The position numbers were made by a program, and so were the translations under genes. Of a stretch of 64,000 nucleotides of DNA, positions 27,366-62,650 are shown piece by piece; position 1 is the first letter of the stretch, and every line of letters begins with the position of its first letter. The notes under the pieces were generated by a model. The model did not search any database, was not told where the DNA came from, and saw only the letters and a program-made list of their open reading frames with translations. Source of the stretch: Zygaena filipendulae (lineage: Eukaryota > Arthropoda > Insecta > Lepidoptera > Zygaenidae); NCBI GenBank assembly GCA_907165275.2, contig OU015649.1, positions 7,098,001 through 7,162,000 on the forward strand. The letters are read 5' to 3'.

Positions 27366-27570
27366 CACGTTGCGTTGGACTTGAGCACTTCCTATTAGGG
27401 CTTTAAAGTTAAAACTTATTAAAACTACCTTCAATCACCTTCAACCTCAGAACCAGTCTAACGCAACTAGGAACAAATTAAATTTTGTTCGTGTTTAGCA
27501 CTCATTTTTTTTTTAATTTTTTTTTTTCCATGGCATCAAAGATGGCCTCACATGCTATTCCAGTCTTTTG

Positions 27571-27604
27571 CACAAATTAACTAGACTTATGTCTAAAGAT
27601 CTAT
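27571..27604. mobile_element. Micro-insertion Z1 (34 bp)
   Basis: The insert starts CACAAATTAACTAGACTTAT and is flanked by the perfect 8-bp duplication GTCTTTTG (27563-27570 and 27605-27612). This is the longest Z copy. The 28-base copy at 48576-48632 and the 18-base copy at 48542 share the CACAAAT end (on the opposite strand) and stop earlier at the other end. Confidence 0.85.
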
Positions 27605-27669
27605 GTCTTTTGTCTCTGAATCTTTCTTACAATCTGTCATCTGTTTGTCATGGCGACGCATGTTGTTAT

Positions 27670-28125
27670 TTGGGAAAAGGGTACTTGCATGAAATTTTTT
27701 TTTCAGTCTATTTTAAAGATATATGGCCTACTTAGACAAAGCAAGAAAAAGAAAAAAAATATATGCATAAATTAATGAAATAGAGCGTTTCAAAGTTCCC
27801 AAAGACTTTACCGCCGAAACGCGGAATGACGTCACTAGTTCAAAATTACGCCTTATTAATCTGTGATAGAAATGTCACTGTCGTATTGACAAGGTCATGT
27901 GACACTGACAGACAGATAACTTCAATATCCAAAAGCGAAATTAAGGTTGAAATGTGTCGAGTTACTTCCAAAAGTTCCAGTAAAGAATCGAAATGCATCT
28001 TACCGGTGCATTTTAAAGTAAAAAACTTCAGAAAATGGAAAATATGCGTTGACTGTATGCACTTAGTTTCTTTTGCCTTCTCTGAAAGAGGTAAATCTTT
28101 CCTAAAAAAAATAAAAGTGATGTCA
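27670..28125. repeat. Interspersed repeat D, copy 1
   Basis: This segment is closely matched, same orientation, by 61527-61965. Shared words include GGGTACTTGCATGAA, GCCGAAACGCGGAATGACGT and GACACTGACAGACAGATAA. Decayed pieces occur inverted at about 31700-31830 and 45540-45600. The 127-residue open frame across it is a by-product. Confidence 0.75.
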
Positions 28126-28863
28126 TGTGTTAAGCGTGGCTGTGATTGGTGTTTCGTTGCAACGTTCCGTTTCACAAAATTAAAAGTTGAATATTTCGGA
28201 AACTATTGAATTTTTTTTAGTAAATCTTTCACGATAACGCTTTTCAAAGGCTCTATTTTTGAAATATTAACACAATTTCTTATTATAAATTTCATGCAAG
28301 TACCCTATTGTGTGATTTTTAAAAATTTTGTGTGATTTACGCTTTGAAAAGTGCAGTGTGACTATTAAAAACTATTTTCTTGTGATTGGGTAGAGAAATA
28401 GCACCGATTAGACGGTGTAGTACGTACCTATGTAATTTGTACAAAAAGATAGAGTCGACAAAATTTAAATAAAAGGAAATTTATCACGAAATTTCCTATA
28501 GATGAAGACCGGTAAGTACAGCTTGAGTAAAGTAATAAAGTATTTTGTTCTCTTCAGCTATCAGCAAGACTAAAATAATACACTATCTTTTTGAAATGAG
28601 AAAAAATATTTGCATGTTTGTAAACCATAGTGATGTAAATCTTCACTATCGATAAAGTGAGTCGATAAACTTTAATGAATGATGCTGTTATAGTGAATAT
28701 TTTGGAATACTGCGTATACTTTTTTCATTACTTACTGCAGTTTTCATTCAGTATTATGATCGTATTGTAATAAAGTGTATCTCGTCTTCTGTATAAAGAA
28801 CTATATTATACTCTATCTTGTTTCTAAGTGTACTTGCATGATTGATAGATATTTTAATTTCAG

Positions 28864-29041
28864 ATGTCGACAATGGGTAAAAAATATTGGAAATTATGAC
28901 TTAGCTTACATTCCAATCGAAAAACTTCACGATATAAAATATGTCTGTGGAGATGTAAGGAATGAATGTCGGATACTTCTACCGATAGATATTTCTACCG
29001 ATAATTTAAACAAGGCTCAACAAGGAGGCACTGCGAAGTAA
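28864..29041 (+). pseudogene. THAP-like exon or remnant
   Basis: A good splice acceptor (TTTTAATTTCAG) precedes a 59-codon stretch reading RCRQWVKNIGNYDL, AYIPIEKLHDIKYVCGDVR, then a stop. An AATAAA follows at about 29111. The order RC..W, then PIEKLH, then VCGD is that of the second half of a THAP zinc finger. The final His of the C2CH set, normally in C-x-D-H-F, is absent. No upstream exon with the first Cys pair was found. It may be a decayed P-element-derived THAP gene. Confidence 0.4.
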
Positions 29042-29442
29042 ATCATTTACTTTCCCAAATAGGTTATTTCATTTTGACATAAAATGTAAATGTAATTTTT
29101 AAAGAGAAAATAAATATCTATCTATCTAATAACATCATCATCATGACAAACTAAAATATTGGAATAATAATAAATAAATAAAAATAATAATTTATTGTTT
29201 CAATTTTACAACAAATGTTTTCCCCCGTTGTAGATTTAATTCACCTGGTATGAAGCCCACGATGCTCTAATGATAGTTTATCGATATCGATTTAATCAGG
29301 AACTACATGTGGCCATCCCTATTGTTCTCGTTAATGTTGGTACCCATGAGTTATGAAGTATTTTGACATTTAAATTTTCGCTGTGTTGGTATTGCTGGGT
29401 CTGCTAAATGGATTCCAAAACCAAGTAAGGAAGTCCCGTCTC

Positions 29443-29470
29443 TTAAAACGTAGTGATTACCTTCTCTCTG
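29443..29470 (+). repeat. Micro-insertion family X, copy without visible duplication
   Basis: TTAAAACGTAGTGATT continues ACCTTCTCTCTG. It matches the copy at 48058-48084 across its whole length, but no direct duplication flanks it. Confidence 0.6.
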
Positions 29471-29521
29471 CTCAGAACAATTTCTTCTGAGCCTTCAACT
29501 AATGTAGATGATCCTCCTAAC

Positions 29522-29541: not shown

Positions 29542-29543
29542 TA

Positions 29544-29878
29544 GAGCGATGCCACACGGGCGTTGCAGCTGCGCTGCGTCGTCGCGCCGCGATGATTTCA
29601 ACGCAGTGAATGCCACATGAGCGCTGCGTCGACGCTGCGTCAACGTATTCAATATGCTAATAAATACTGCGCTGCCGCTCCGTCGTTTCAACGCAGCTCC
29701 CTTCCCCACCTCGTCTCTCACCTCTCCTTGTACGTTGCGCTTGCGTTGCGTCGCCTTCCGTCATTTCAACGCATCGTGTGACATGTCGTTCAGATATGTA
29801 TGTAGAACAACGGAGCGTCACCGCTCAGTCGACGCAGCGCTAACGCAACGCACAGACAACGCCCGTGTGGCATCGCTC
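29544..29878. mobile_element. GC-rich Harbinger-like MITE (TTA duplication)
   Basis: The ends GAGCGATGCCACACGGGCG and CGCCCGTGTGGCATCGCTC are perfect inverted repeats of 22 bases, flanked by TTA (29541-29543 and 29879-29881). The interior is built of GCTGCGTCGNCGC-like words. Perfect ends suggest recent activity of the source family. Confidence 0.8.
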
Positions 29879-29889
29879 TTACACTGTTG

Positions 29890-47619: not shown

Positions 47620-48000
47620 TTATTTTATGTTTTAATTTTTTTTATGGCAATTATCATTAATGACATTGTTGCCAGTGTCGCGTTAATTTAATTTGCAAAT
47701 AGAATTAAAAATGAACGAGCGAAAATTTTGGGCGTTCGTTGTAATAAGAATAGTGAAATGGGATGAACTATGTAAAATGGAACAAGACAGAAATTATATA
47801 CTTATACTTAAATAAATAAGAGAATATTAACGAATAATAAGTCATAATTTAATGTCGTTAAAAGTAAGAAAGTCTACTAGGATTACTGTCTCAAAATATG
47901 GCGGAAATTCAAATTAAAATCAGTCTAAATTCAATATTACTAACTTAATTATTATTAATCACAAAGTTAAGGAACTTTTTATCTTTAGCTCGTGACTTGG
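47620..48000. other. No gene recognised
   Basis: This is AT-rich DNA upstream of WDR55 without recognisable structure. Confidence 0.3.
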
Positions 48001-48011
48001 TCAGTGGTCAC

Positions 48012-48046
48012 CTCAGACGAAATAAAAACTCTTTATTTCGTCTGAG
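48012..48046. mobile_element. Micro-hairpin insertion H4 (35 bp)
   Basis: The ends CTCAGACGAAATAAA and TTTATTTCGTCTGAG are perfect 15-bp inverted repeats. The perfect 8-bp duplication GTGGTCAC flanks it (48004-48011 and 48047-48054). Confidence 0.9.
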
Positions 48047-48057
48047 GTGGTCACCAG

Positions 48058-48084
48058 TAAAACGTAGTGATTACCTTCTCTCTG
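48058..48084 (+). mobile_element. Micro-insertion X1 (25-27 bp)
   Basis: GTCACCAGTA is duplicated at 48050-48059 and 48085-48094. The insert between ends TAGTGATTACCTTCTCTCTG. Its left duplication overlaps the right duplication of H4, so the two insertions struck the same ten bases at different times. Confidence 0.85.
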
Positions 48085-48299
48085 GTCACCAGTACAAACC
48101 TAACCTAACTAATAAAGCAAACTCTTTGTCGATTATGATTTCATGATGGGGCCACGACAGTTATATTCTATATTCTAATTTCTTTTACTTACTTCAAAAA
48201 ACAGATCAAACATAAATTGTGACTTATTTGATAATAAATTGACCCAGTATTTAAGTAAGTAATGTAAACGAACACGAAGAAAAGGAGGCGTGGTTTCAT

Positions 48300-48533
48300 C
48301 GACCAATAAGAGCGGTGTCACTAATTCCGGTGCTGTACATTCCAGTGTTGAACATTTTCGGCACGGTCAATTTGTACGGGGCGGAATGCACGACACTGGA
48401 ATTCATGTATAGGACTTCAAATACGTGCTGTAGAATACGGTGTCGTACATTCCAGTGTCGTGCAATCCAGTTCCGGTATCGTACAATATCGTGTTGTGCA
48501 TTCTGTCGGAGGTCGTACAATATCGTGTTCTCA
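48300..48533. repeat. Degenerate ~20-bp repeats, direct and inverted
   Basis: Variants of GGTGTCGTACATTCCAGTGT recur at about 48325, 48440, 48475 and 48510, and inverted near 48380-48400 (GAATGCACGACACTGGAATTC). Two open frames through it (one per strand) reflect the repeat rather than a gene. Confidence 0.5.
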
Positions 48534-48541
48534 GTCTACGG

Positions 48542-48559
48542 AAGTCTAGTTGATTTGTG
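48542..48559 (-). mobile_element. Micro-insertion Z2 (18 bp)
   Basis: AAGTCTAGTTGATTTGTG is flanked by the perfect 8-bp duplication GTCTACGG (48534-48541 and 48560-48567). It has the same TTTGTG end as Z1 and is cut back at the other end. Confidence 0.85.
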
Positions 48560-48566
48560 GTCTACG

Positions 48567-48676
48567 GGCTCCCGTCTTTAGACATAAGCTAATTTACTAG
48601 ATATCTGTGGACATAAGTCTAATTAATTTGTGGTGGCCGGTAGTATCTCTAAGTAGTTTGTGGTGGTGGCTCCCGT
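48567..48676. mobile_element. Three nested micro-insertions (Z, Zb, Y)
   Basis: The outer duplication GGCTCCCGT (48567-48575 and 48668-48676) encloses a Z unit starting CTTTAGACATAAG. That unit is interrupted by Zb2 (48589-48609, CTAATTTACTAGATATCTG..) with duplication GACATAAG (48581-48588 and 48610-48617). Its right flank is interrupted by Y2 (48638-48662) with duplication GTGGTGGC (48630-48637 and 48663-48670). Removing the inserts restores a simple upstream sequence. Confidence 0.8.
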
Positions 48677-48816
48677 GATTTGTGCGCTTAACATCAAAAT
48701 AAAACCAACCGTTTGTTTACCTTTGGTAGGAAGGTAATAACTACTAGGTAGTGATTTTATGTGAATTTTTCAGGTTTTTACATAGTTTAAATAAAAATTT
48801 AATCGAGACTTGAGAA

Positions 48817-51800
48817 ATGACTTTAGAATTCCGCAATTTTGATAAAAATTCTTCCGATGAGAGCAGTAGCGAATTAAGTTATGACTCTGACAACGAAGAT
48901 GCAGAACATAATTTTACAGACAATGAGGGTATGTAATGATATATTTAGGTGCCTTTTAGTTTTTATTTTCACCCGCTAATTTCGAAGTATGGCGTATAGC
49001 CTATGTTACTCAGAGATAATGTAGCATTCTAATGGTGAAAGAATTTTTGAAATCGGTCCAGTAGTTTTTTAGTTAAATCGTAAAAAACACAAAAAATCAA
49101 ATCTTTCCTCTTTATATTAATAGTATAGATAGTATCTGGGTCGCCGACCTTCGCTCGTTGTGTATAGCGCCATCTGTTGTTAAGTAGAAAAACAAACACT
49201 AATTTTTCATTGCCTGAAAACACGGATAAAATGACGTTTTTTAAAAAAGAAACCAAAGCGCGGGAAACCTCGAATTAGGCGGATGTTTTTTTCGAGATAA
49301 TTTTTTCAATAATATTTTTTGTAAAGTTATAAGTGTTTAGAGGAGTATATTTAGTTGCTCATTGTATTTATATTGTTAATTATTTATTTATAGTATAGTT
49401 TCATCATAGTGGTAAGTCACAAATTTTATATATAAAAATTTTTCATTGTCATGGATGATCCCCCAGATCCTGGGGGATCCATCCCTTTTATTGGAGCAAA
49501 TGTAACAGTAGCACAAATGTCTGAATCTAATGACTCCTCAGTAGACACTGATGGAGGTTGTAAAAGCTCGCGAAAACGCAGCAGACTGCACAGGATTTGT
49601 AAAGGTTGCAACAAAAAAAAAAGAACACACAAAAGTATAATCAAACCTAATAGTTGCAACTGTACAGAGACCTTAATAGAAAATCCAATTACTAATTCTG
49701 CAGCTAACGTATCTGAAAATATCCTTTTAAAATCACCATCTATTCCTGCTTCCCTGCAAGAACAGACAAATGCAAGCATAGGTCGAACCGTTTATGAACC
49801 AACAGACTCATCTCCATACATCTTACATATCCAACGGGATCAGTCATCCCCAAATGATGGTACCACACTCCATCCTGTAACTTTGGGCAGAATTCTGTAT
49901 AGAAACTCATTTAATAACATAATTAATGGTAGTTTAAAAAAAATAGGCCGTAATAAAATCTCAATAAGTTTTTCAAACTATGTTGATGCCAATCTTTTTA
50001 TAAATAATAAAATATTTTTGGATTCCCACAAATTAAAAGCATTTATACCCTCTTTCAACATAACTCGTTTAGGTATTGTGCGCGGAGTGCCCCCAGAGTG
50101 GTCCCCGGAGGAAGTAAAAGATAACATGACAGTTCCGATTGGGTGTGGAGACATTATTAAAGTTAGGCGTCTGAATTATAAAGTTATTATTGATGGTTCT
50201 CCTGTGTGGAAGCCATCTCAGTCGGTTGTCGTCACCTTCGACGGTCAGGTACTTCCCAAACGCATTTTCATGTGCTTTAATGCATTACCAGTCGACTTAT
50301 ACATTTATCCAACAATCCAATGCTTTAATTGTTGTAGGTTTGGACACACTAAAGTTCTCTGCAGATCTAAACCGCGATGTTATAAATGTGGACAAGATCA
50401 TTCTGGTGATTCTTGTACCACAAGTGATGAGGCATCATTTTGCTGTCTGTGCTCTGGCATGCACCATGCCATTAGTAAGTTCTGCCCTGAATACTCCCGC
50501 CAAAAAAACATAAAGACATACATGGCAAACAATTGTGTTTCTTATTCCGAAGCATCTAAATTACATCCTGCTGTCACAAAATCTTTTGCTGATATAGTAG
50601 CAAGCCCTCAGACAAACCAAGCTCAAAAAACAACTGTCCCTACCTCGCATCCTTCAACGAAATCATACAAAAAGACTGTTTTTTTAAAACCTAGATCCCC
50701 ATTCAGTCCAACAAAAGGGTATGATCAATCAGCTCATGCAGCTTTAATTACAAACTATAATAATATGTCTCCTATGTCAGGTAATGGATGTGCCCTTAAT
50801 AGTGAAAATAGTGCACCTTGTAACTTTAGTCCTTTGACTGATATTATTGTTTCATTAGTAAATTTTTTATCTCAATCCAAATTAATACCACCGACCAACG
50901 TTGCTAATATATTGGAAACACTAAATCAAAATAGTCACAGAGGGCCTAGCCAAGATTGTTCAGTGGAACAGTCGAAGTATAATCAATAAAAAAACTGATC
51001 TTTCCTATCTAATTAATAAATACAACCCATTTTTAGTAGCTCTCTCTGAAACATGGTTAAAACCAAATTTTTCCTTTAAAATTCCAGGTTATGTTAGTTT
51101 TCGAGATGACAGATTAGATGGGTATGGCGGTGTTGCCATACTCGTTAAAAATTATTTGCTTTTTTCCCAAGTTATTATCCCTACACATTCCGATAATATT
51201 TCAATAGTTGCTATTAAAGTAAAAAATATTTGTTATGTATCCGTTTATATTCCCCGTCCATCGTCTAGTATATTTGACGAACTTAATGATATTTTTACAA
51301 AACTTCCAAAACCTTTTGTGGTTCTGGGAGACTTTAACTCTCACCACCGATCATGGGGTAGTGGAACTACAAATCATGATGGTGAAAGACTTTTAGATAT
51401 TTTTGACTCCCATAACATATGTATTTTAAATACTGGTGAACCCACACGTCGCACTGATCCACAGGAAAATGTCAGTGCAATCGATCTGTCTGTTTGCACC
51501 CCAAATCTTGCCTCATCACTAACTTGGTCCGTTACTTCATCAACACTTGGCAGCGACCATTTTCCTATTATAATTACATTTCCTTTTCGTACTCCTTCAA
51601 AACAAAATAAAAGTCCACGTTTACGATACAGGTTAGACGAAAAAGGGTGGACACGTTTTAGAAGTATTGTTCATGATAAAGTATCGACACTTCCTATTAT
51701 ATCATCTGGATCTGAAGCTGTATGTAATAATGCGTTAGGTGTAGTTTTAGCTGGAGCTGCAGATGCAACGTTCCCTACAAAAAATCCTACTTCTGGTAAA

Positions 51801-57800: not shown

Positions 57801-60800
57801 AGGGTACTTCCTGTTGACCTAGAATCATGGAATTGGGCAAGAGCATTGTTTTATTGCACAAGTAAAAGGAAATATCCGAAAACCGTGAATTTTTAGTAAC
57901 CTACATCAAAGAAATAAGTCATTTAAAAATCTATATCTCAGACTCTATTCCTTTGATGGATGAACTATTTACATACCTATCAGTCTGTATTGACCCTTTT
58001 ATTAATAACTTATATTTTTTTTTACTGTAGGATAGAGTAATAATGATTACTGATACAGAAACAGGAAAATTGAAAAGATGTTATGAAAATTGTCACGAGG
58101 AACCAGTCTATAAATTGCTGTGTATTGATAATAATAAAATTGTTACAGGTAAGTTAATAGTGCATAATTGTTATGTAACGGCCACATCCAAAAATGATTG
58201 ATCAGTTCATGATATGGCTGGCCATTACATGAAATGGTTACAAGCAGGACTAGTTACTAGTACTTTGATAGAGCACCCCAACATTCTTGGTTAGGTATTA
58301 GTTCATGTCGTAGCGTGGCCAACTAGTTTCAAAAAAATCTAACTAAATTGCAAATAATAAAAAGTTAATTGCCGTGAATTGGCTATGAATTGGTATGACT
58401 ATTGTAAGTGTGGAAACGTAATGATTTCACACTTATAATAATAGTATAAAAAAAAAATTTCACAATTTTTAGTGCGTTTTTTTTAGGTTTAATTGAACTT
58501 ATTAACGGTACGTAAGTATCCTTACTAATATTATAAACTAGTTGTGCCCCGCGGTTTCACCCGCGTTAATTTCAGAGTTCCCGCGGGAATTCCGGGATAA
58601 AAAGTACCCTATGTGTTAATCTGATGTATAAGCTATATTATTGTAAAGTTTCATTTAAATCCATCCAGTAGTTTTTGCGTGAAAGAGTAACAAACATCCA
58701 TCCATCCGTCCGTCCATCCGTCCATCCGTCCATCCGTCCATCCGTCCATCCGTCCATCCGTCCATCCGTCCATCCGTCCATCCGTCCATCCGTCCATCCG
58801 TCCATCCGTCCATCCGTCCATCCGTCCATCCGTCCATCCGTCCATCCGTCCATCCGTCCATCCGTCCATCCGTCCATCCGTCCATCCGTCCGTCCGTCCA
58901 TCTATCTATCCATGCATTCTTACAAACTTTCGCGTTTATAATATAAGTAGGATGTGAAAGTGAGTTTTTTACGCTTTTACGCCTTAACGGCTCAACCGAT
59001 TATCATGAAATTTTGCATGCACCTTGTCAGGGGTAGGTATACAGTCAACAGCAAAAGTAGATGATCAAAATCAGAAATTCAATACTATTGAACGAAGTTC
59101 GCGTCAGAACTGTGTGGTGTCGAAGTGATTCAAAAGTATGTGATTGTAAATTATACCAAAAATTTACTACTAAATACACCTGCCATATATGATCAGTTTT
59201 GACTCCAAAAGTTATAAACTCAATTCGCATCAGAACTAAGAAGTAAAAAAAAATTTCAAACCTATTGAACAGTTAAAATAAAAAATTAAATGATGAAACT
59301 GAGGCCACGTAATCATGAGGCAAATAATTCATCCATACTTATTTTATAATTATCCCAGTAATTTAATTTATGTTTTACGGAAAAACAGCACGAAGCTCGT
59401 AGCAGACAACAAAAATAAAAAAAATATTGCTAAATTTATACATTCAAATATTATAAATGTTCAAAAAATATAATTTTCTTACGTTATTAACGGAAATCTG
59501 CTTTAGAATACTAATTATGTACCGTGACCTCAGTTTCATCATTTAATTTTTGATTTTAACTGTTCACAAGTTTTACATTTTTTTTTTTTTCACTTTTTAG
59601 TTCTGAATTCTGATGCGAATTGAGTTTATAACTTTTGGCGTCAAAACTGATCACGAATATATGGCAGCTGTACTAGTAGTAAACGTTTGGTATAATTTAC
59701 AATCAGATACTTTTGAATCACTTTGACGACACACAGTTCTGACGCGAAGTCCGTTCATTAGTATTGAATTTCTGATTTTGATCATCTACTTTTGCTGTTT
59801 ACTGTACATGGGCCGTATTTTTAAATCGCTCGAATTAATCTTAATTGAAATCAATTCACATGTGAAATTAAATTCACTGAATCCCATTTTGTCATATTGA
59901 AGCATTCGAATACGGATTACGGTGTTTTCTGAAACTCCTTTAGATTTGTTTCATTTTACGCAGAGTATTTAAAAACCGGGAGCAAACTCTCATAGATTTT
60001 CATAAAAAACAGGTATTTCTTCTTCTTCTTCTTTAATAATGGCGTCTATAATTATAATTTGCCAATGACAACGTTTCTTAGTGATAATTAATGGCAAAAC
60101 GCCAATGACAATCTTAGATTGTTCCCCAAGTTAAAACATGGCAAACAGGTATTTAATCGGACTTGAAACGAAACGTTTTTTAAGTTGTCAAACTATCAAT
60201 CATGTCAAATTATGAAAATGACGTTATGCCACTAAACGTCCAACTTTTGGTTGTTGACGAGTGAAAGCCGTATCGAAAACACGCGGTCACGTTTGTCTTC
60301 GTTATTTCAGTCACTTTTCAGCATCTATTTAGGACCCTGAGCAGGAAACTGGCTTTCAAGAGAGCCATGTTTTAACTTGGGGAACAATCTAACATTGTCA
60401 TTGGCGTTTCGCCATAATTGTAGAAGAAGATGAAGAGATTTTTATTATTAAGAAACATTGTCATTGGCAAAATATAATTATAGACGCCATTATTAAAGAA
60501 GAAGAACGGTGGAGGTCGTAGCGAGTGGATGCCTGTCGCGTTATTTATTCGATATTTTCACCACCGTTCAGCAGTAATTTTGTTTTCCAAGAAAGAAGCT
60601 GGTTTTCGAGAGGGAATCGTGTTTTATCTTGGGGAACAATCTAATACTGTCATTGGCGTTTCGCCATAATTACTTTCAATCAATCAATCAATCAGCCTAT
60701 TGCAGTCCACTGCTGGACGTAGGCCTCCTCGAGGGCACGCCACAATACACGATCTCCCGCTTTCCTCATCCAGCCACTACCAGCGACCTTCTTCAGGTCA

Positions 60801-62650
60801 TCGGTCCATCTTACTATCATTACAATTTCTAAAAATACGTAGGTACATTGACAGAATTACATGCGATAAATCGCAATAGATTACCATAATTGAAGAAGAA
60901 GAAGAAAGCAATTCAATTAAGACGGTCCGACCCACTCTTTGCAAAATTCAAATATTTCACGCATTCACATGCGAATTTTGCGATTTCGTGTGTGAAAAGT
61001 AATTTGAGCGAATTCCCGCGGCAACTCTGAAATGGCCGCTACTACTGATACCTATTACAGATAGTATGTAATAAAATCTGCTACTATTTAAATTATCCTT
61101 TTTATTTTTTAGGAGACGATGCAGGAACTGTCAAATTGTGGGATACGAGAAAATCAGATTCGGTATTCAGCATTAAAGTTGGTGAAGAATACATATCAGA
61201 TATGATAACAAATGAGGCTCAGAAGTATCTAGTTTGTGCTGGTGGTGATGGTGTGCTCTCGTCAATTGACCTCAAAGGAAGGTACATATAAAAAGTTTTT
61301 CAAAAGCTATTCAGTCAGTAAAAAGATCGCTCCGTAGTCCGTACTAGTTCAACTTGATCAATTAACAAGTTCACCTTAAATCTGAATACCTACATAGTTC
61401 TATTAGTTATATAATATATTCGGATTTCAGTCCCGTAACAATAGTACGAGTCCCAGAACTCCCAGAGGATGACACTACGACTTACGAGTTGAGACTTGAG
61501 AATTATGCGCGCTCGTATCAATAGGGTACTTGCATGAATTTCTTTTCCAGCCTATTATAAAGATATATAGCCTACTTAAACAGAGCAAGAAAAAAAATGC
61601 ATAAATTAATTAAATAGAGCGTTTTAAAGTTCCTACTTTTGACTTTACCGCCGAAACGCGGAATGACGTCACTAGTTAAACATTACACCTTATTAATCTG
61701 TGATAGAGATGTCACTGTCGTATTGACAGGGTTATGTGACACTGACAGACAGATAAGTTCGATATCCTAAAGCGAAATTAAGGTCGAACTGTGTCGAGTT
61801 ACTTTCAAGAGTTCCAGTAAAGAATCGAAATACATCTTACCGATGCATTTTAAAGTAAAAAACTTCAAAAAAAGCAAAATATGTGTTGACTGTATGCACT
61901 TAGTTTCTTTTGCCTTCCCTGAAAGAGGTAAATGTTTCCTAAAAAAATAAAAGTGACGTAATATGTTAACATACGTTATACGTACTGACGTAAGTGCAAA
62001 AGCTTCAACAGCGAACGCATTGCACATAAATTGTTTTTTTCAGAACAAAATCATCAAAATCCTTTTGTAAATAACCTCGGTTTTTGCCCTCGGGACAAGA
62101 TCGAAAGGCATTCGTTATTTTCCCATAATTATCTTTAATTATTATTTTCAGCAAAATATATACGACGTCTGAAGAGTATGATTCAGAATTAACTTGTATG
62201 GGACTTTTTCGTTCTGATACAAAGCTGTTGGTTGGGTCTTCTAAAGGCAAGATTTACCTATTCAATTGGAAAGAATTTGGTTGGCATAGTGATGAGTACA
62301 TTGGAAATAAACAATCCGTAGCATGCATGATTCCTATCACTCAAAATATAGTCGTCACGTCAGGAGAAGATGGTGTGTTAAGGGCCACGCATATGTTTCC
62401 TCAACGAGAACTTGGCATAGTGGGACAACATAATTTGCCTGTTGAATGTCTAGACATAAGTCACGATGGCCAATATATAGCTTCGTGTTCGCACGACAAC
62501 GAAGTGAAATTCTGGAACATCTCATATTTTGAGAACATTGATGGCATTATAGATGTAAATCATAAACAAAACAAGAAAAAGGATATGAAAAATAATTTGC
62601 CATCCAGTACTGTTAAAAATGCATCCGACTTTTTTTCAGGTCTAATTTAA
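48817..62650 (+). CDS. WDR55: WDR55-like WD-repeat protein, five exons
   Basis: Exons are 48817-48928, 55084-55415, 58031-58148, 61113-61281 and 62152-62650, with GT..AG borders and matching phases. They total 409 residues and a stop. The first ~70 residues are acidic ([32 protein letters not shown]). WD repeats follow: [109 protein letters not shown] and [23 protein letters not shown]. The order and the [11 protein letters not shown] and [11 protein letters not shown] motifs fit WDR55, a nucleolar protein needed for rRNA production in vertebrates. The C-terminal tail is lysine-rich and short. Introns of 6.2, 2.6, 3.0 and 0.9 kb are made largely of mobile elements, including a whole LINE. Exon 4 ends with the weaker donor GTACAT. 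Confidence 0.92.
48957..49135. repeat. Repeat fragment in WDR55 intron 1
   Basis: The words CACCCGCTAATTTCGAAGTATGG and TTTGAAATCGGTCCAGTAGTTTTT, ending CTTTATATTAATAGTATAG, are those of short interspersed repeats common in this kind of genome. The stretch directly precedes the LINE. Confidence 0.5.
49451..50989 (+). CDS. LINE ORF1, gag-like nucleic-acid-binding protein, 512 aa
   Basis: This is the RNA-binding protein of the LINE particle. The first ~120 residues are hydrophilic with a basic stretch ([18 protein letters not shown]). A central domain (about 140-285) contains [15 protein letters not shown] and [19 protein letters not shown], as in gag-like proteins of insect non-LTR elements. 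Three CCHC zinc knuckles follow at about 291-345 ([42 protein letters not shown]). The C-terminal part is Ser/Pro/Asn-rich. The start is the first Met after the leader, and the frame is intact. It overlaps the 5' end of the ORF2 frame by about 65 bases. Confidence 0.9.
   Translation: MDDPPDPGGSIPFIGANVTVAQMSESNDSSVDTDGGCKSSRKRSRLHRICKGCNKKKRTHKSIIKPNSCNCTETLIENPITNSAANVSENILLKSPSIPASLQEQTNASIGRTVYEPTDSSPYILHIQRDQSSPNDGTTLHPVTLGRILYRNSFNNIINGSLKKIGRNKISISFSNYVDANLFINNKIFLDSHKLKAFIPSFNITRLGIVRGVPPEWSPEEVKDNMTVPIGCGDIIKVRRLNYKVIIDGSPVWKPSQSVVVTFDGQVLPKRIFMCFNALPVDLYIYPTIQCFNCCRFGHTKVLCRSKPRCYKCGQDHSGDSCTTSDEASFCCLCSGMHHAISKFCPEYSRQKNIKTYMANNCVSYSEASKLHPAVTKSFADIVASPQTNQAQKTTVPTSHPSTKSYKKTVFLKPRSPFSPTKGYDQSAHAALITNYNNMSPMSGNGCALNSENSAPCNFSPLTDIIVSLVNFLSQSKLIPPTNVANILETLNQNSHRGPSQDCSVEQSKYNQ
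50925..54644 (+). CDS. LINE ORF2, endonuclease, reverse transcriptase, RNase H
   Basis: The ORF2 frame is open from 50925. The first ATG is at 51156, which would cut off the start of the endonuclease ([18 protein letters not shown]), so translation probably begins upstream by shifting or re-initiation. An APE-type endonuclease comes first ([23 protein letters not shown]). The reverse transcriptase follows ([36 protein letters not shown]). An RNase H domain comes next ([49 protein letters not shown]). The C terminus has the usual Cys/His motif ([17 protein letters not shown]). About 1,240 codons are open and no defect was seen. The products would act together at an AT-rich nick to copy the RNA into the genome. 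Confidence 0.9.
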   Translation: MKIVTEGLAKIVQWNSRSIINKKTDLSYLINKYNPFLVALSETWLKPNFSFKIPGYVSFRDDRLDGYGGVAILVKNYLLFSQVIIPTHSDNISIVAIKVKNICYVSVYIPRPSSSIFDELNDIFTKLPKPFVVLGDFNSHHRSWGSGTTNHDGERLLDIFDSHNICILNTGEPTRRTDPQENVSAIDLSVCTPNLASSLTWSVTSSTLGSDHFPIIITFPFRTPSKQNKSPRLRYRLDEKGWTRFRSIVHDKVSTLPIISSGSEAVCNNALGVVLAGAADATFPTKNPTSGKIASPPWWDNECTQAITKRKRAEKDYCNEMTSENFAIYTLVLNETRKLLRKKKSEGWKSFCSTLSPNTQPSVVWRNIRRFKYGFNDASHVIMPPSLSESFIDRLAPPFVPEENLLANSDKLHSITADDPTGLNSLFSLSELKAVLAKVKDSAPGNDGIPYSFLAHLTDSALSYYLNLINTIMITGNVPGPWKYQIVIPILKPNKNPSDSSSYRPIALSSVMAKVAEHLVKNRLEWFIESNKLLADSQFGFRKGKGTLDSISIFTTDIRLAFSQNKIVVSAFLDINAAYDNVLLTVLIQKLSLLKVPAMLLKFIKNILSDRIITLDGTPTSRHIWKGLPQGSVLSPLLYNIYTYDLESSLEGTVQTLQYADDLLLYISDQSIQTACNSLSHSLSLLKIWLDKNGLDLSASKSSVVLFSRKRNPPPILMCFNNDPIPVKTYVKFLGIVLDSKLTGLQHCDYLYTKCERNLNLLRCIAGVWWGAHPYCLKLVYNALIRSVIDYGTFLLEPGSVAGFKKLDGIQSKALRIISGAMKSSPINALQVECGDPPLSLRRQFLSDKYLFRSLQFLYHPIFYKLRSLSDLTTSSRYWSHKSPPCLLKSYYKFSSFKAPTFRTPVLPIFLSPFRSLFILPEIKYNLGIDRNDGNSNKVFKYKVDINWHDWHYIYSDASKHSLNGFVGVGVYHSQYNIVEKIKLPPETSVYTGECFGVLKAVEYILVMKLNRSVIFTDALSVLNALEKPPFSYKIQYPVILEIRKLLYDCEMRGYTVHFCWIPGHCINGNIRADQIANEAVECGDLHPFNNYCHDLTNIPKVHLQKAWMEQWKISATTKGRHYYSLQPCVPTKPWFFKTKLEKIATSIIIRMRLGHVCSPAHLAKLGIVASEMCSCGKDVGDLNHIIFSCTSYNCSTFYDSLTSISVPLPTSISSLLSSNNPDIYRILSSHIMSNNIKI
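55645..55905 (+). repeat. Interspersed repeat A copy in WDR55 intron 2
   Basis: It begins CTTACTAATATTATAAATGC and ends GGTGAAACCACCGGGAATAG, with a second partial unit inside. Confidence 0.6.
56288..57768 (+). pseudogene. Broken RTE-like LINE in WDR55 intron 2
   Basis: A frame from 56288 ([18 protein letters not shown]) stops at 56425 and continues in other frames through [20 protein letters not shown] and [18 protein letters not shown], as in the ORF1 region of lepidopteran RTE-like LINEs. Beyond a foldback insertion come [12 protein letters not shown] and [34 protein letters not shown], the start of an endonuclease. Then the frame jumps to [16 protein letters not shown], the extreme end of the polymerase, and an AATAAATAAATAAATC tail. 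The element is frameshifted, interrupted and internally deleted. Confidence 0.7.
57196..57376 (+). repeat. Foldback element C, left half
   Basis: AAAACCGACTTCCAAAAACAC through GGTTTGTGCTACCACTGACC and GGTGTCTGCCCACTTGGGTTG match the left half of 12700-13055. The right arm is absent. It interrupts the RTE-like LINE. Confidence 0.65.
58535..58960 (-). repeat. Repeat A copy with embedded minisatellite
   Basis: This is a repeat A copy running from CTAGTTGTGCCCCGCGGTTT to TTATAATATAAGTAGGAT. Its AACATCCATCC segment is expanded into an 8-bp minisatellite. Confidence 0.75.
58697..58907 (+). repeat. Minisatellite (CCATCCGT)n
   Basis: About 25 near-perfect units of the 8-mer CCATCCGT run through this block, with a few extra CCGT units at the ends. 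It gives long open frames ([16 protein letters not shown]) in several registers, which are not genes. Confidence 0.9.
59042..59804. mobile_element. 763-bp TA-flanked foldback MITE in WDR55 intron 3
   Basis: The ends CAGTCAACAGCAAAAGTAG and CTACTTTTGCTGTTTACTG are inverted, with TA on both sides (59040-59041 and 59805-59806). The arms pair over about 280 bases, including GATCAAAATCAGAAATTCAA and its mirror. No coding capacity was seen. Confidence 0.75.
60010..60510. repeat. Repeat E, inverted pair around an unoccupied Zb site
   Basis: The left arm (CTTTAATAATGGCGTCTATA, CGCCAATGACAATCTTAG) is mirrored at 60365-60505. Between them lies the segment matching 31060-31215, with TCGTCAAC once only (reverse strand). 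This is the empty site for Zb1. Confidence 0.7.
60683..60850. repeat. LINE-derived fragment
   Basis: CAGCCTATTGCAGTCCACTGCTGGAC and CATCCAGCCACTACCAGCGACC are words of a very common insect LINE 3' region. Only a short fragment is present. Confidence 0.45.
61527..61965. repeat. Interspersed repeat D, copy 2
   Basis: This is the counterpart of 27670-28125, same orientation, in WDR55 intron 4. Small differences and indels are scattered along it. Confidence 0.75.

Follow-up and report, generated by a model that had tools for sequence, protein, structure and literature searches.

Laboratory excision of P elements leaves scars that retain about 16–17 bp of each transposon end. P elements are cut with a 17-nt stagger, generate 8-bp target duplications, rely in part on end joining for repair and prefer promoters (PMC7776569); hAT elements duplicate targets of the form nTnnnnAn and excise through hairpins on the flanks, leaving a short random footprint (PMC3878927); in rice, the breaks left by departing DNA transposons are closed by end joining, with fillers and with deletions in the flanks, and perfect footprints are rare (8 of 94; PMC4423477); and the P-type miniature inverted-repeat transposable elements (MITEs) of Anopheles are non-autonomous, with P-type ends and 8-bp duplications (PMC1562414). 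Here we analyse a 64,000-nt stretch of the Zygaena filipendulae genome (contig OU015649.1, positions 7,098,001 to 7,162,000; hereafter the window), in which six micro-inserts, of the types that we label H, X, Z, Zb and Y, are crowded into positions 48000-48680 beside the WDR55 gene. The most likely cause of these micro-inserts is excision and repair rather than a new class of mobile DNA: they are probably the scars of larger DNA transposons, each consisting of an end remnant of ~15-27 bp held between two copies of an 8-bp target.

Results

On re-reading the sequence of the cluster, exact 8-bp duplications were found to flank five of the six micro-inserts. The original prediction had described exact duplications around all six, which fails for Z: this insert is interrupted by Zb2 and overlapped by Y2, and the duplication word beside its outer end matches at 6 of 8 positions. 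The longer duplication word that had been proposed for X1 also falls away, its extra letters being chance matches beside the true 8 bp. At sites sampled elsewhere in the genome (366 Mb, 56 contigs), the claim that the duplications exceed chance is borne out: with long-element ends excluded, X sites carried an 8-bp duplication in 42 of 63 cases, as against 2.6% with shuffled flanks, and Z sites in 11 of 21, as against 7%. Reversed-word controls had 0 and 4 copies, compared with 2428 for the X end word and 2362 for the H end word. An unbiased tally of all 8-bp repeats was overwhelmed by tandem and low-complexity repeats.

In a test of duplication length, for which both insert edges were set blind to the flanks, a duplication of 8 bp was present in all 6 H palindromes, in 8 of 12 H2 palindromes, in 11 of 15 copies of a 24-bp X form ending ACGTG, in 5 of 7 X copies ending ACGTT, in 4 of 5 copies of a 22-bp X form and in 3 of 5 Y copies. 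The 27-bp X word had it in 6 of 22 cases, 7 of the 22 being the ends of long elements. The four H2 palindromes without it are three overlapping matches in a single locus (L055) and the window copy that hosts a long X element. Trimming of the right duplication was seen in two further copies of the 24-bp form (both 7 bp) and, among the 15 short copies of the 27-bp form, in one at 7 bp and one at 4 bp.

H and X, the best-sampled types, are made of the ends of much longer elements that are still present. For H these are elements of 0.8-1.9 kb with inverted repeats of ~54 bp; six of them, picked as H ends facing each other 0.8-1.9 kb apart, were fetched, and all six showed the repeats together with exact 8-bp duplications. 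For X it is an element of 1.4-2.0 kb. One such element stands in the window (Table 1), hosted by an H2-type insert that has a duplication of its own, CCTTCAAC (27438-27445, 29492-29499), and a second copy (L006, 138-1494) has GGAGTGCT on both sides. The two end words of the long X element differ from each other (CAGAGAGAAGG and CAGTCTAACGC) and have only CAG in common, whereas the H repeats run to ~54 bp. Importantly, the 20-mer of the X end has 2428 copies, while an 18-mer of the partner end of the long element has 212, a ratio of ~11:1. The original prediction had argued that the inserts are too short to carry normal transposon ends; for H and X the relation is reversed, the inserts being transposon ends themselves. 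Elsewhere in the window, the reading frames at 61618-61950 look similar by eye to frames within the long X element (27784-28206), and a second related element may sit there.

Among 34 H stretches fetched (14 + 20), 27 contain a short insert flanked by an 8-bp duplication (accepted with at most one mismatch), four are long-element ends (L131, L138, L145, L152) and three have no duplication (L122, L124, L134). With two inserts from the 10-kb stretches described below and four from the window, these 27 make 33 short H inserts, of which 32 are distinct in sequence. Their longer arm measures 15-22 bp, mostly 17-20, though the long repeat spans ~54 bp; their shorter arm, of 0-19 bp, comes from the same repeat on the other side; and at their junctions the arms overlap by 1-3 bp or are separated by as many as 34 bp of additional letters. 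Both ends are retained in 27 of the 33. All 8 H2 inserts are distinct, and the 42 X sites with a duplication hold 16 distinct inserts, with a left arm of 20-27 bp, never longer, and a 1-bp overlap at the junction in 16. The lower arm limits (X 20, H 15) were fixed by the search words, and only the upper limits carry information. Repeated movement of one small unit would yield uniform copies, whereas independent excisions would produce such varied inserts, with a sharp upper arm limit set by the cut; we regard the inserts as probable scars. End joining, in turn, is suggested by the trimmed right duplications and by an apparent filler in L021, where two X copies lie 575 bp apart and have 55 bp in common at 98%: one copy holds ~28 bp of the other's flank, which, if the copies arose in the order that their sequences suggest, would be templated filler copied from the nearby X copy and its flank.

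Empty sites were identified as paralogous ones, that is, in copies of dispersed repeats within the same genome. The repeat hosting the cluster belongs to a dispersed family of which we counted 51 among the matches listed, from 40 scored candidates, and in L002-L005 it is uninterrupted where the window carries H4 and X1, L003 reading CGTGACTTGGTCACCAGTACAA. L006 is likewise the empty site for the Z insert that lies inside the window's long X element, with the target word present once. In L101 the partner end of a long X element is split by a Z insert with AGTCTAAC on both sides. The original prediction had named two outcomes that would tell against it, namely copies showing no flank duplication above chance and loci at which insert and both duplications are ancestral; neither occurred.

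The window, at 64 kb, contains 22 occurrences of the six end types. A sample of 200 kb from elsewhere, taken as 10-kb stretches at round positions, 20 in all and on 20 contigs, contains 15, with four of them in a single stretch, and a Markov copy contains none. In view of these counts, the window is a rich spot and not a unique one. Nesting recurs at other loci: words resembling CTCAGAAC have served as targets of X in L052, L055 and L071, the Z word CTTATGTC is the target both of X in L046 and of Zb2 in the window, and Z is nested in Z in L104. The tandem X copies of L053 and L054 had led us to consider a composite moving on its micro-X end, an idea that we rejected when the far sides showed a long X element landing twice at GTAGTGAT within X sequence; besides the copies in the window and L006, two long X elements on contig C1 are flanked by this word. 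When looked for at the Z target CTTATGTC, clean tandem-duplication footprints turned up in only two places, and one of the two is perfect.

Several further observations concern these same sequences. At C4:11689707-11689730 a Z word has CTTATGTC exactly doubled in tandem, resembling an empty footprint, and a few smaller footprint-like sites were noted, for example at 48000 (GGTCAG-TGGTCACC) and in X copies of L071 and L072. In L055 (C1:7513383-7513752) a 27-bp unit of H2 and X letters forms a head-to-tail array next to remnants of X and H2, and looks like the product of repeated template switching. At 29542-29880 of the window, an element with inverted ends AGAGCGATGCCACACGGGCG... lies in a Z-type word. 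The remaining features are a tandem array of TCCATCCG (58697-58902, ~26 copies) and a reading frame at 49452-50400, between the first WDR55 exon candidate and a WDR55-matching exon at 62 kb; from its CCHC-like residues, we presume this frame to be retrotransposon gag-like.

Table 1. Positions of the micro-inserts, their duplications and related elements in the window
Feature	Position	Strand	Description
H4 left duplication	48004..48011	+	8 bp, GTGGTCAC
H4	48012..48046	.	Probable scar: one H end (20 bp) fused to the other H end (15 bp)
H4 right duplication	48047..48054	+	8 bp
X1 left duplication	48050..48057	+	8 bp, GTCACCAG
X1	48058..48084	-	Probable scar: outermost 27 bp of the long X element (- strand: CAGAGAGAAGGTAATCACTACGTTTTA)
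X1 right duplication	48085..48092	+	8 bp
Host repeat	48083..48503	+	Dispersed family, ~420 bp; H4 and X1 absent from copies L002-L005
Z	48573..48632	-	Split by Zb2; imperfect duplication CGGGCTCC / GTGGCTCC
Zb2 left duplication	48581..48588	+	GACATAAG; target within Z
Zb2	48589..48609	-	21 bp, end word CACAGATATC...; interpreted as a scar
Zb2 right duplication	48610..48617	+	
Y2 left duplication	48630..48637	+	GTGGTGGC; overlaps the outer end of Z
Y2	48638..48662	-	25 bp, end word CACAAACTACTTAG...; interpreted as a scar
Y2 right duplication	48663..48670	+	
Long X element	27454..29470	-	2017 bp; duplication CTCAGAAC at 27446-27453 / 29471-29478
Z insert in long X element	27571..27604	+	34 bp; duplication GTCTTTTG

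Discussion

The history that we propose for the micro-inserts begins with the insertion of a long DNA transposon, with the 8-bp target duplication seen for long H and X elements. The element would later leave through a staggered cut ~17-27 nt inside its end, so that end pieces stay behind on the flanks, and the break would be closed by end joining with trimming, overlaps of 1-3 bp or filler, as the junctions suggest. The product would be a duplication, one or two end remnants and a second duplication. H2, Z, Zb and Y presumably share this origin, and new elements would often hit old remnants, building nested clusters such as that at 48000-48680. The whole process may be likened to P-element excision, and a promoter preference like that of P elements would suit a cluster beside WDR55. 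The suggestion that the inserts are products of an unusual repair process fits this scheme, and the RNA template that had been envisaged for them is unnecessary.

If this is correct, the genome is a legible archive of transposon departures, in which each scar records the former site in its 8-bp duplication, the cut in its arm length and the repair in its overlap, filler or trimming. The ~11:1 excess of X ends would then mean that most insertions of the X family are gone again, a turnover that is normally invisible. A caution also follows, in that repeats of 20-35 bp with target duplications, present by the thousand, could pass for tiny transposons. We found no description of such inserts in the part of the open-licence literature that was accessible, so they may have been described in print elsewhere.

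Several results weigh against an origin by excision. (i) Among X sites, 21 of 63 lack a short-range duplication, as do 10 of the 21 Z sites; four of those X sites (L053, L054, L072, L088) are part of long elements or host one. (ii) The other end is reduced to 0-2 bp in all 42 X scars, unlike the two-ended majority of H. (iii) The single 24-bp X form was seen 14 times among the 42, as expected of a copied unit, and a mobile X would equally account for the surplus of X end words. (iv) For H2, Z, Zb and Y, no long element was found. (v) No transposase was found either: Pfam THAP had no match in three reading-frame pieces taken from the long X element of the window, in a piece of the long H element L116 or in a further piece of the window. 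Both of the long elements that this test covered look non-autonomous. A THAP-like look of two reading-frame pieces was discarded when Pfam, solved structures and a protein search lent it no support. (vi) The motif of the X duplications is also compatible with hAT elements.

Point (iii) bears on the foremost alternative, that the inserts are true micro-transposons, elements of 18-35 bp mobilised in trans by an 8-bp-duplicating transposase. Their exact duplications at both edges, the constancy of both edges of the 24-bp X form and the very high copy number all speak for it, but the diversity of the H, H2 and X inserts, the trimmed right duplications, and H and X arms that are prefixes of a long-element end, none longer than 22 bp (H) or 27 bp (X), make it unlikely. 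Micro-MITEs, in particular, were rejected for H on the strength of 32 different inserts at 33 sites, and the distinct micro-mobile class of the original prediction is not supported for H, whose words form the ends of long elements flanked by duplications of the same 8 bp. For X it is weakened by the 16 distinct inserts, yet retains the support of the commonest form. A narrower version, in which X alone is mobile, as an independent unit of ~24 bp that has one genuine transposon end and a two-letter second end and moves in trans, and in which long elements left H and H2 as scars, is just as improbable in our estimation, but as a live minority case it deserves to be stated; such a unit would, to our knowledge, be among the smallest mobile DNA units in a nuclear genome.

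Slightly less probable again is one-ended or abortive copy-in transposition, in which a short stretch beside a single end is copied and inserted with a ragged inner end. H inserts are two-ended in most cases, however, the arm lengths are sharply capped, and the captured flank of L021 is equally explained by templated filler after a break. The one constant and one variable end of X, Y and Z might suggest retrotransposon copies that target-primed reverse transcription left heavily truncated at the 5' end; non-LTR (long terminal repeat) copies have a variable duplication and a 3' tail, whereas here the duplication is fixed at 8 bp, the inserts that were read have no A-rich tail, H retains two inverted ends and the long parents of H and X are bounded by two defined ends and the same duplication, and we consider this reading very improbable and have set it aside. 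Chance repeats or microsatellite slippage deserve next to no credence: short direct repeats are frequent in AT-rich DNA (16-25 by chance in Markov copies of the window), but the shuffled-flank and reversed-word controls and the empty sites already refute them.

An origin by excision can finally be compared with the systems from which we started. (i) With P-element excision, in which the cut lies 17 nt within the inverted repeats (PMC7776569), the inserts would share the 8-bp duplication, the repair by end joining and the end remnants. Unlike it, the arms here reach 22 bp (H) and 27 bp (X), X is one-ended, and the exact end words number in the thousands within one genome. Measured against the P superfamily, the 8-bp duplication is present; the longest arms, an indirect measure of a ~17-nt cut, are mostly 17-20 bp, with maxima of 22 bp (H) and 27 bp (X); in place of inverted repeats of ~30 bp, H has ~54 bp and the two X ends share only CAG; and no THAP domain or P transposase was seen in the frame pieces of the non-autonomous-looking elements. 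(ii) As to hAT, the 8-bp duplications agree with nTnnnnAn, with T at position 2 in 57% and A at position 7 in 48% of the 42 X sites. The X start, CAGAGA, also resembles hobo-type ends. In contrast, H starts CTCAG and, in place of the few altered bases of a hAT footprint, described as short and random (PMC3878927), the inserts, if scars, hold remnants of 15-27 bp. (iii) With the rice footprints they have fillers and end joining in common, and one of the two places at the Z target is a perfect tandem duplication, but long end remnants of constant maximum length are not described in the part of the rice study available (PMC4423477). (iv) A MITE is a uniform short unit with two inverted repeats, whereas H is almost never the same twice and X has no second end, with the reservation that the 24-bp form recurs. 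The Anopheles P-MITEs keep both ends and a central region, and bear names with sizes such as 617 and 2450 (PMC1562414); the inserts of Z. filipendulae span 17-62 bp, and those of H are nearly all different.
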